Shown here: positions 44,201 through 48,003 of the stretch, one piece after another
Numbering within the stretch: the stretch's first letter is position 1
Layout of the letters: every line of letters begins with the position of its first letter
Assembly (NCBI GenBank): GCA_026129865.1
Contig: JAHCHG010000001.1
Span: forward strand, 310,001 to 374,000
Direction of reading: 5' to 3'
Source: Pyrinomonadaceae bacterium
GTDB taxonomy: Bacteria > Acidobacteriota > Blastocatellia > Pyrinomonadales > Pyrinomonadaceae
DNA: 64,000 bases
The notes under the pieces: model-generated
Told to the model about the DNA's origin: nothing
Database searches by the model: none
The model's input: the letters and a program-made list of their open reading frames with translations, nothing else
Made by a program: the position numbers and the translations under genes

Positions 44201-45478
44201 ATGAAAATCTACCTGTCTTTGTTTTTGGTCACAATTTTTTCGATCGCTTCTTTTGGTCAAGCAATGCCGAAGGACGCCGACCCGGCGATCTGGCAAAAAG
44301 CTCTGAAAATTCACCGAAGCGCGATAATTATTGACGGTCATAATGACATTACATCGCCGATGGTCGATGACGACTTCGATCTTTCGACAAATTCCATCGG
44401 CAAATATCACAATGACGGCGACCCTTATCATACCGATCTGAATAGATTGAAGCTGTCCGGCATCACCGGCGAATTCTTTTCGATCTATGTTTCCGGCAAC
44501 ACTCTGAAAACCGGCGGATCTATGCGCCGTGCGATGGATCTTATCGACGCGACCTATCGCGAGGTTGAAAAGCACCCGGAAAGTTTGAAAATGTGTTTCA
44601 CGGCTGCGGACATCGTAAAAGCCAAGAAGGACGGCAAGATCTGCGCGCTGATGGGAATCGAAGGCGGGTACGCCATTGAAAACTCTCTTTACGCATTGCG
44701 CAACTTTTATCGTCTCGGCATTCGGTACATGACGCTGACGCACAACGTTACGCACGATTGGGCAGACGCGCACAATGATGAAAAACGCAATAACGGATTG
44801 TCCGACTTCGGCAAAGAAGTCGTTAAGGAAATGAACCGGCTCGGCATGCTGATCGATATTTCGCATGTTTCCGTCAAGGTCATGGACGACGTTCTGGATA
44901 TTTCCACCGCGCCGATCATCGCTTCGCATTCTTCTGCTCGCGGCGTTGCGAATCATACCCGGAACGTTCCGGACGAAATTCTAAAACGCGTTGCAAAGAA
45001 CGGCGGCGTTATGATGATCAATTTTTATCCCGCGTTTTTGGACGACGAATACAACAAAGCCGAAAACGAAAGATCTGCACGGTTAAAGCCGCAGATAGAC
45101 GCTTTGAAAGAAAAATTTAAGGATGACCGTTTGGCGTTTAACGAAGCGGAAAGAAAGCTTTTTGCAGAAAATCCTATTCCGGTTCCGAGCTATACGCGCA
45201 TCGTCGATCATATCGATCATATGAAACGCGTCGCGGGAATTGACATTGTCGGCATCGGATCCGATTACGACGGTGTTCCGCTTCTTCCAGCGGGAATGGA
45301 AGGGATGGAAGATCTCGTTCTGGTTACTTATGAAATGCTGAAACGCGGATATACAGAAACCGAGATCAAAAAGGTCCTCGGCGGCAATTTTTTAAGAGCT
45401 TTTCAGCAGGCTGAAAAGGTCGCGAAGATAAATACCAGAAAGATCAGCGCGGAAGGACGCTTGAGGAAGATTAAATAA
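44201..45478 (+). CDS. Membrane-dipeptidase family (M19) peptidase
   Basis: 426 residues from ATG 44201 with GAGGA upstream. A signal peptide (LSLFLVTIFSIASFG) shows export. The M19 metal ligands are visible: IIDGHND (HxD), GIEGG (Glu), DISHVS and SHSSARG (His), and GSDYDG. The family cleaves dipeptides, and some members beta-lactams. Monocistronic as far as seen. Confidence 0.94.
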   Translation: MKIYLSLFLVTIFSIASFGQAMPKDADPAIWQKALKIHRSAIIIDGHNDITSPMVDDDFDLSTNSIGKYHNDGDPYHTDLNRLKLSGITGEFFSIYVSGNTLKTGGSMRRAMDLIDATYREVEKHPESLKMCFTAADIVKAKKDGKICALMGIEGGYAIENSLYALRNFYRLGIRYMTLTHNVTHDWADAHNDEKRNNGLSDFGKEVVKEMNRLGMLIDISHVSVKVMDDVLDISTAPIIASHSSARGVANHTRNVPDEILKRVAKNGGVMMINFYPAFLDDEYNKAENERSARLKPQIDALKEKFKDDRLAFNEAERKLFAENPIPVPSYTRIVDHIDHMKRVAGIDIVGIGSDYDGVPLLPAGMEGMEDLVLVTYEMLKRGYTETEIKKVLGGNFLRAFQQAEKVAKINTRKISAEGRLRKIK

Positions 45479-45540
45479 GCGTTCCGACATTTCGTAAATC
45501 GTGTTGGTTAAATTCCAAAGAGAATCGATACGGATTTAGA

Positions 45541-45725
45541 ATCGCTGAAAGCGATAAATATTAAAGCCCCGCGAGAATCGCGGGGTATTCTTATTTAAAG
45601 CAACCCGCCGGTGAAGCCGACGAATAAGATCTGCGTGCTTATTCGTCGGCTTCACCGACGGATTTTCTATTCTTGTTTGAACCACCGATTCTCGGAGGGC
45701 TTTAATATCCGTCGCCGTTGGCGAC
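45541..45725. repeat. Nested palindromic element
   Basis: A symmetric intergenic unit. Terminal hairpins are ATCGCT/AGCGAT (45541-45555) and GTCGCC/GGCGAC (45711-45725). Inside these, a ~23-base outer inverted repeat runs from 45558 to 45580 (ATATTAAAGCCCC...) and from 45686 to 45708 (complement, two mismatches). The left outer arm itself contains the stem CCCCGCGA/TCGCGGGG (45567-45585). At the centre GGTGAAGCCGACGAATAAG (45610-45628) pairs exactly with its complement (45638-45656). No protein is encoded; frames across it are low-complexity. Confidence 0.88.
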
Positions 45726-45747
45726 AAATTGGAAAACTAAGCCCGAA

Positions 45748-47481
45748 TTACAACCCCAACATTTCCTTAACATATTTCGGAGCCGGAGAACCGAAGCTGA
45801 GCATTTCATCGTGCATTTTTAGAACATCAATTTTGCCTTTATGCTTTGCTTCATACGCTTTTCTTATCTCGTTAACCTCGACCGAGCCGACATAATATGT
45901 CGAAAGCTGCGTTGACGAAAGCTGCGCCCGTTTCCATTTTCCGGCGGCTTCGCCTTCTTCCTGAAAACCCTCGTTCATCATGAAATCAACGGCTTCCTTT
46001 TCGGTCATCCCGTCCGTATGGATCTTCTGATCGATGATCGCATTGATTATCACGCGAAGCTTCATCTTCAGCTGCTGCATCTGAACTTCGTCGCCGCCGT
46101 AACCGTTTTCCGCCATCACCTGTTCGGCGTAAACCGCCCAGCCTTCGGTGAAAGTTCCGCTTCTAAAAAGCGAACGGATCATCGTCGGCGCCTTAAATTT
46201 ATTCGAATGCATTATCTGAAGATAATGTCCGGGCATTGCTTCATGCACCGTCAGGTTTTTCAGCATGTAATCGTTATATTCTTTATAGAAACTTTCTTTC
46301 CTTGCATCGCTCCAATCTTTCGGAGTGGGCGAAATGGTGAAAAATGTCTCGTTCTTTTTTTCAAAAGGACCGGCAGAATCGAAATAAGCGACGGCGGTTC
46401 CGCGGGCAAATTCCGGCATTTCTATCACCTTGACCGGTTCGGTCGGAACCGTAACAAGATTTTTCTTCTTTACGAATTCCGTAGTTTCTTTCAGATCTTC
46501 ATTTGCCTGCGCAACGATGGTTTCGTTGTTCGGACGCTTTTCAGCAAGTTCGCCGAGGACGATCTTCGCAACCGCCCGCGGATCCATTCGGACCAGAGTG
46601 TAATCGATATCGGGATGCATCTTTTTATAAAGACGCCAGGCGACCTCGAACATCTTTTCCTGCGTTTCTTTCAGATCGCCCATTCCGTATTCGAGTATCT
46701 GTTCCTTCGAAAGATCGGACTGCAGCGCAAATTTTAATTTTTTGCGAAACTTATCGTCGCCCAGACGAAAGTCCGCGTTCGAACGCGGCAGCAGATCTTT
46801 TTCCATCCATTTGCCGAAATCTTCCAGCGCGGCTATCGCTATCTTCTGCGCGGGCGCCATTTCTTCCTGCATTCCCGCCTGGTCGATGAACATCTGCAGA
46901 TCGCCGTTGATCAGATTTATCGTGCCTTTGTTTTGCGCTATCGCGGTTTCGGTATAAACCTTCGGCGGGTTTTTAAGATTTGCCTTGGCGGCGTTAACGA
47001 CCGCAGGAATTCCCAAAAGACGTTTCTTCGCGTTTTCAAGACGTTCCTTGAGCGGTCCGAAATCGCGCGAGATCAAACTATTTATCGCGCTGCCGACGTT
47101 ATACGACATCGGATTCCACTCATGCTCCTTCAAAACGTCTATCCGGAACAAGGTGTATTCCAGATTGTGCCGCATAATGCGGTAATCGACGTTGTTCACC
47201 TTGCTCAGCTTGTCCGCCTGGATCTTATTGAGTTGTTTCAGATAATTTTCGGCAAATTCACGATCTTTTTTGACCGCGGCAGCGCTGTAATCATCCAGCC
47301 GACCGTCGTACTTATGTTCGCCAAGAGCGGTCGCCCACTCCGGGCTTCTTTCCATAAGTTCGGCGATATATTTATTCGCGAGTTCTTCAAATTGTCTATC
47401 TTCGCGGGAGAAGTTAGTTGCCATAGCCGTTTGCATGAAAACAACACAAACAAGCAATAAAACCGATATTCTTGAAAACAT
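45748..47481 (-). CDS. DUF885 family secreted peptidase-like protein
   Basis: About 577 residues from ATG 47481 (signal VLLLVCVVFMQTAMA). The C-terminal half has HEAMPGHYLQIMH, a HExxxGH zinc motif, followed by FTEGWAVYAEQVMAE. DUF885 proteins are presumed metallopeptidases; substrate unknown. A longer start at 47508 has no support. Confidence 0.9.
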   Translation of the reverse strand: MFSRISVLLLVCVVFMQTAMATNFSREDRQFEELANKYIAELMERSPEWATALGEHKYDGRLDDYSAAAVKKDREFAENYLKQLNKIQADKLSKVNNVDYRIMRHNLEYTLFRIDVLKEHEWNPMSYNVGSAINSLISRDFGPLKERLENAKKRLLGIPAVVNAAKANLKNPPKVYTETAIAQNKGTINLINGDLQMFIDQAGMQEEMAPAQKIAIAALEDFGKWMEKDLLPRSNADFRLGDDKFRKKLKFALQSDLSKEQILEYGMGDLKETQEKMFEVAWRLYKKMHPDIDYTLVRMDPRAVAKIVLGELAEKRPNNETIVAQANEDLKETTEFVKKKNLVTVPTEPVKVIEMPEFARGTAVAYFDSAGPFEKKNETFFTISPTPKDWSDARKESFYKEYNDYMLKNLTVHEAMPGHYLQIMHSNKFKAPTMIRSLFRSGTFTEGWAVYAEQVMAENGYGGDEVQMQQLKMKLRVIINAIIDQKIHTDGMTEKEAVDFMMNEGFQEEGEAAGKWKRAQLSSTQLSTYYVGSVEVNEIRKAYEAKHKGKIDVLKMHDEMLSFGSPAPKYVKEMLGL

Positions 47482-47639
47482 ATGATTTTTTTCCTTTTTT
47501 ATATGCAAGGATTATGTAAATTTGCGCGTAAAAAATCCAGTAGAGATCACCGCCCAGCGCGTATTAACTGAATTTTTCCGGCAATCCGGTTAATGGATGC
47601 TGAAATTGACCGATTAGTTGAATACGCTCTGTAAATAAG

Positions 47640-47866
47640 GCAGAAACGCGACCGCTAGGGAGCGTGCCGCCACCGCAAATAGGGCAGAAACGCGACCGCT
47701 AGGGAGCGTGCAGCCACCGCAAATAGGGCAGAAACGCGACCGCTAGGGAGCGTGCCGCCACTACGCGTTCCCGGAATTGTCTGAAAGCGAACCTATTTGC
47801 ACGCTTGCTTGCGCGCGCGTTTCTGCCCTTTGTTTTGCACGCTTGCTGGCGCGCGCGTTTCTGCCA
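47640..47866. repeat. Dispersed repeat array 3: three A copies, then two B-like copies
   Basis: A cores start at 47640, 47684 and 47728, period 44, with spacer CGCCACCGCAAATAGG-like. Two degenerate B copies begin at 47799 and 47838 with the core changed to GCACGCTTGCTTGCGCGCG. The A-then-B order again matches arrays 1 and 2. It lies upstream of the glycosyltransferase gene. Confidence 0.88.
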
Positions 47867-48003
47867 TTTGTTTCACTCGCCTGCTTGCGGTGGGCGCTTA
47901 GAATTTAGACCGCTAACTTCCTGCAAACACAAAACCAATCAATTGTTATACTTCTCCGTTTTCTGCTATTTTAGAAAAACCTTTTTTATTAATTCTCCAA
48001 AAT

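Follow-up and report, generated by a model that had tools for sequence, protein, structure and literature searches.

The window, a stretch of 64,000 nucleotides from a Pyrinomonadaceae bacterium, contains at positions 45541-45725 a 185-bp palindromic element, which is very likely a non-autonomous, tnpA-less copy of a family of IS200-like Y1/HUH single-strand transposons, i.e. an HUH-type MITE. In long members of this family the same ends enclose a tnpA gene located between the inner hairpins, and the 185-bp element therefore corresponds to those ends without the gene. It lies within the 269-bp gap that separates two convergent genes, encoding a dipeptidase on the left (end at 45478) and a DUF885-like protein on the right (minus strand, end at 45748). 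Our analysis confirmed the original prediction, made from the letters of the window, that the element encodes no protein.

The palindrome is real and far beyond chance: its folding energy is -94.8 kcal/mol on the plus strand (z -10.4 versus shuffled sequences) and -101.6 kcal/mol on the minus strand (z -12.7), and none of the shuffles matched the real fold on either strand. The outer arms (45542-45580 and 45686-45724) are 39 nt long and 77% complementary, while the central arms (45602-45628 and 45638-45664) are 27 nt long and 93% complementary, with about 20 nt perfectly paired, in agreement with the perfect 19-base central stem noted earlier. The element is not the fully symmetric palindrome described earlier, as its left and right outer hairpins differ in stem (ATCGCTgaaAGCGAT versus GTCGCCgttGGCGAC). 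The order of parts is HP1-linker-HP2-spacer-HP3-loop-HP3'-spacer-HP2'-linker-HP1', and the conserved unit is a set of six local hairpins, not one long cruciform. The features are listed below (G000 denotes the genome of the window, other G numbers those of its relatives).

45541-45555, plus strand: left HP1, the terminal hairpin ATCGCT-GAA-AGCGAT with a 6-bp stem (from the sequence and the family covariation in HP1)
45556-45566, plus strand: linker AAATATTAAAG; HP1 and linker make up the 28-nt end motif that ends in A-G-C, family consensus ...TATAGC (from the invariant A25 G26 C27)
45567-45585, plus strand: left HP2, CCCCGCGA-GAA-TCGCGGGG; followed by the tail ATTCTTATTT, it is also predicted to be an intrinsic terminator (from the sequence and terminator scoring)
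45606-45622, plus strand: left HP3, a diverged repeat of HP1 that forms the inner hairpin CGCCGGT-GAA-GCCGACG with one mismatch (from the arms and HP3 covariation)
45629-45637, no strand: 9-nt loop, the position of tnpA in autonomous elements (from comparison with G000:C4:55812-56455, G023, G003 and G026)
45644-45660, minus strand: right HP3, CGTCGGT-GAA-GCCGACG as read on this strand (from the arms and HP3 covariation)
45682-45698, minus strand: right HP2, CCTCCGA-GAA-TCGGTGG with one mismatch (from the sequence)
45711-45725, minus strand: right HP1, GTCGCC-AAC-GGCGAC (from the sequence and the match to a relative's end)

The right end (28 nt, 45698-45725) recurs unchanged in another genus, as an end that adjoins tnpA (G008:C26:23006-23033). 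Left HP2 and the ATTCTTATTT that follows it (45566-45586) look like an intrinsic terminator of the upstream dipeptidase gene.

A DNA search of the own genome with the whole element revealed no second copy, only the element and its own reverse complement, a misleading result that the short end motif corrected; the same whole-element search of relatives from the same family gave both full-length and partial matches. The first search motif, built on HP2, was discarded, as it matched the element alone because HP2 varies. With up to 3 mismatches allowed, the end motif of 28 nt, GTCGCYNNNRGCGACNNAYAWTANAGCC, matched the own genome at 14 places. Across 60 genomes it matched more than 100 further times, mostly in a small number of genomes, whereas the reversed control pattern gave 0 matches in the own genome and 0-3 in the others. 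Copies at unrelated sites, which the original prediction had proposed to look for, are thus present both in the own genome and in relatives, and the genomes that match belong to Pyrinomonadaceae, Acidobacteriota. The fetched ends form facing pairs: 27 pairs 183-249 bp apart, which come from about eight genomes, one 89-bp pair, and five pairs 624-684 bp apart. In four of these long pairs an intact tnpA lies between the innermost HP3 hairpins, and the fifth (in G022) holds a related tnpA with one in-frame stop. One of the four is the autonomous copy in the own genome (G000:C4:55812-56455, 644 bp), which carries its tnpA at C4:55917-56366, and one end of this copy is 87% identical to the right end of the 185-bp element over 78 aligned bases; the closest other IS to the element's ends is found in G023 (73-79% identity). 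The copy number of the family in the own genome is low. In ten genomes of other phyla, searched with an exact pattern, we found mostly isolated ends and two pairs of tnpA length, and no miniature copies. Elsewhere in the own genome, at L037:2003-2885 on G000:C18, HP1-HP2 units of this family are repeated in tandem next to a second related tnpA, an arrangement that resembles BIME-like amplification.

The intact tnpA encodes a 150-aa IS200-like Y1 (HUH) protein, recognized by the Pfam Y1_Tnp model (102 bits, cut-off 23) and the NCBIfam IS200 model (80-82 bits, cut-off 55), in which H55 and H57 of the HUH motif and Y115 and Q119 of the Y-x3-Q motif are invariant among eight members. With Y-x3-Q-x2-HH, WQ, a length of ~148 aa and a C-terminal tail, it has the sequence signature of TnpA-Y1 subclass 1.2 as given in Table 1 of PMC6006769. 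The family also has features of REP/BIME/REPIN doublets spread by a class-2 TnpA-REP (RAYT), namely short intergenic hairpins arranged in inverted pairs, a tnpA of low copy number together with many copies that lack it, and the tandem arrays on C18. We nevertheless regard such an origin of the element as unlikely, since the cognate enzyme reaches only 27-29 bits with the NCBIfam REP_Tyr_transpos model (cut-off 80) while it passes the IS200 model, and it carries the tyrosine motif Y-x3-Q-x2-HH where class 2 has Y-x3-NP. Furthermore, tnpA resides inside the element, not beside it, the CGTC sequence is inside a stem rather than unpaired, and the GTAG tag is absent 5' of the hairpin in the flanks and linkers that we looked at. 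The class-2 RAYTs of the own genome have other flanking repeats, which suggests that they do not act on these ends.

Other hairpin families are present in the same genome. One of them, GGCAGAAACGCGACCGCYAGGGAGCGTGC, is a palindrome family unrelated to that of the element and much more abundant: it matches the own genome at 104 places (up to 3 mismatches; control 0) and occurs in the window at 1400-1700 and 47630-47870. At C15:6888-8412 facing GGCAGAAACGCGACCGCYAGGGAGCGTGC copies surround a Y1_Tnp gene (C15:7558-7776), so the product of this gene is the probable cognate RAYT-like enzyme of GGCAGAAACGCGACCGCYAGGGAGCGTGC. The other Y1 genes at G000:C19:146095-146520 (L035), G000:C2:134180 (L040) and G000:C12:118340 (L042) each have a flanking hairpin family of their own (CGTGGGTTTTAACCCACG, CGCGGACGGCTCGTCCGCG, CGCAGGCTGCCAGCCTGCG).

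Comparison of family members revealed that the hairpins covary. Two-sided changes were found in 5 of the 6 pairs of HP1 (32 distinct ends, in which A25, G26 and C27 are invariant) and in 6 of the 7 pairs of HP3 (25 distinct sequences), with 100% pairing in both, a value favoured by the fact that HP1 and HP3 were chosen as hairpins, which does not create two-sided changes. With 14 ends in its own genome and covarying hairpins, the element is neither single-copy nor lacking in covariation. Within a single element, HP3 often has different stems on the two sides (GCTCGC versus CGTCGC), and together with the local covariation this means that selection appears to keep each local hairpin rather than a long cruciform. 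Such local conservation is what a hairpin-binding enzyme acting on single strands would require.

The term MITE usually implies a DDE-type transposase, and the long inverted ends would suit a MITE of the ordinary kind, which a DDE enzyme mobilises by its terminal inverted repeats. This explanation is largely refuted and we give it hardly any credence: the hairpins covary locally, not end with end, the sole gene found inside these ends encodes a Y1/HUH transposase, and no target duplication was found in 32 copies (a single 3-bp match was rejected). The suggestion of a MITE-type element made in the original prediction therefore stands as far as copies at unrelated sites and a tnpA gene with the same ends in the same genome are concerned, but the enzyme is of the Y1/HUH and not of the DDE type.

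Presence of the copies varies between relatives. G053 lacks both the 214-bp and the 89-bp copy of G032 at the matching sites. The two convergent genes that flank the element are conserved in G018, where the gap between them holds other sequence instead. The relatives are ~69-75% identical at the polymorphic sites, and for this reason the exact empty site and the cleavage position were not obtained; apart from A+T richness, the flanks of the 32 copies showed no conserved target motif. IS200/IS605 elements transpose strand-specifically as single-strand circles, use guide sequences to choose their cleavage sites and have a specific target tetranucleotide; guides of the IS608 type were not identified here. 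The 89-bp mini-copy (L100:1613-1701, on G032:C17) comprises only HP1-HP2-HP1', without HP3, and its absence at the matching G053 site suggests that HP3 may be dispensable for movement.

The same comparisons bear on the idea that the element is mainly a functional part of the convergent gene pair, i.e. a bidirectional terminator or a structured RNA, and that its mobility belongs to the past only. Its location between convergent genes would fit such a role, a terminator score is reached both by left HP2 with its ATTCTTATTT tail and by a hairpin on the minus strand, and the region 45400-45800 contains 4 predicted terminators versus 0.6 expected. We consider this idea very unlikely, as G018 retains the convergent neighbours without the element, and the same sequence family is found at unrelated sites and around tnpA. 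A structured RNA, which the original prediction had offered as a second possibility, is unlikely to be the primary nature of the element: its matches to Rfam remain below the gathering score (best 28.5 of 82 and 23.1 of 50 bits), so that no Rfam family can be assigned, and its presence varies between orthologous sites. It is possible that HP2 is used as a terminator after insertion, which is compatible with the element being a transposon derivative.

In this family each end comprises HP1, a linker ending in ATAGC, HP2, ~20 nt and HP3, and the opposite end is that set inverted; the autonomous copies have the 150-aa Y1 gene between the two HP3 hairpins, and the miniature copies retain the ends alone. 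For the movement of such Y1/HUH elements we propose the following scheme. The TnpA of an autonomous copy would bind hairpins exposed on single-stranded DNA, at a replication fork or by supercoil extrusion, and its catalytic tyrosine would cut at or near the feet of HP1. Either strand would offer equivalent hairpins because the ends are inverted, and the element would have moved without target duplication, in the manner of IS200/IS605 enzymes. Judging from the sequence features, single-strand transposition is the most likely way of movement.

To estimate how general this arrangement is, we analyzed the flanks of related tnpA genes. Related proteins (E < 1e-30) are present in 53 of the 97 genomes searched, with a maximum of 8 per genome, and TnpA relatives are present also in other phyla. 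When the upstream flank was compared with the reverse complement of the downstream flank, the 167 loci with enough flank gave a median score of 39, while mispaired loci reached 12 and a set of 34 ordinary genes from the window 11 (maximum 20); 74% of the loci were above the 95th percentile of the mispaired null. The density of hairpins beside tnpA is ~2 per 150 nt on both sides (0.2-0.3 in shuffles), and a stricter HP1-linker-AGC-HP2 detector was positive on both sides in only 28% of tnpA genes and in 0% of shuffles. All these figures are estimates because the set includes some duplicates. Ends and tnpA are inherited together: along the protein tree the GTCGC-type ends show 3 changes versus 19.2 with shuffled labels, as is expected of cognate ends. 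Subclass 1.2 was listed by Quentin et al. (2018) as devoid of REP and not IS-like, and as found mainly in Cyanobacteria and Bacteroidetes (PMC6006769); among the literature searched, we found no other work that names this subclass. We find that predicted inverted hairpin-rich ends accompany most of the 167 subclass-1.2-like genes, in several phyla, and thus the published trait of lacking REP- or IS-type end structures does not hold at most of these loci. The association of subclass 1.2 enzymes with composite inverted hairpin ends looks new. It is fairly probable that these enzymes are transposases of widespread single-strand elements in Acidobacteriota, Bacteroidota, Planctomycetota and Verrucomicrobiota, with three-hairpin inverted ends and tnpA-less palindromic derivatives; such elements would form a link between IS200/IS605 and REP/RAYT.

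The unexplained palindrome thereby becomes part of a defined transposon system, and the family points to the DNA on which a widespread, previously "orphan" Y1 branch probably acts. This large, uncharacterised branch of Y1 HUH enzymes gains candidate DNA substrates that are directly testable, which bears on how inverted hairpin doublets (REPs/REPINs) are mobilised. As one genome contains both the form with tnpA between its inverted ends and the form without it, the family may show an intermediate between IS200-type elements and domesticated REPs.

The element is a variant within a known kind; what is newer is that composite inverted hairpin ends are assigned to subclass 1.2 transposases. Among known systems, the IS200/IS605-derived MITEs of haloarchaea (PATEs) are palindrome-ended, tnp-less derivatives of Y1 elements, from which our family differs in the host domain. 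For the hairpin CCCTGAAAGGG, nothing relevant was found among the literature matches listed, which concern mostly NF-kappaB. The TIRYTs/TIRtrons of Di Nocera et al. (2013), which include Acidobacteria, are tyrosine transposase genes located between inverted repeats, some of them self-complementary, and solo repeat pairs exist as well; however, most TIRYTs fall into subclass 2.1 and have HTH tails and GGGGWSAS repeats (PMC3733652), and they differ from our family in both subclass and repeat sequence. REP/BIME/REPIN sequences with class-2 RAYTs (PMC8266576, PMC3733652) share the inverted hairpin doublets, the intergenic location and the excess of tnpA-less copies over tnpA, but have a different class of enzyme and a GTAG tag, whereas here the gene is inside the element and each end has three distinct hairpins. 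Members of IS200/IS605 (IS608, ISDra2; TnpA-Y1 subclass 1.1; PMC6006769) resemble our family in the short single-domain HUH Y1 transposase (150 aa here), in the subterminal hairpins near both ends and in the absence of target duplication. They typically have no terminal inverted repeats, while the ends described here are long inverted repeats of three hairpins each; moreover, our family has no tnpB between the ends, a low copy number, and a TnpA with the Y-x3-Q-x2-HH motif and a C-terminal extension. Published subclass 1.2 (Quentin et al. 2018, PMC6006769) agrees with our family in protein length (148-152 aa), in the HUH, WQ and YIKNQKEHH signatures, and in low-copy, diverged copies; what sets the genes described here apart is that they are flanked by inverted hairpin-rich ends, have tnpA-less derivatives and are common in Acidobacteriota.
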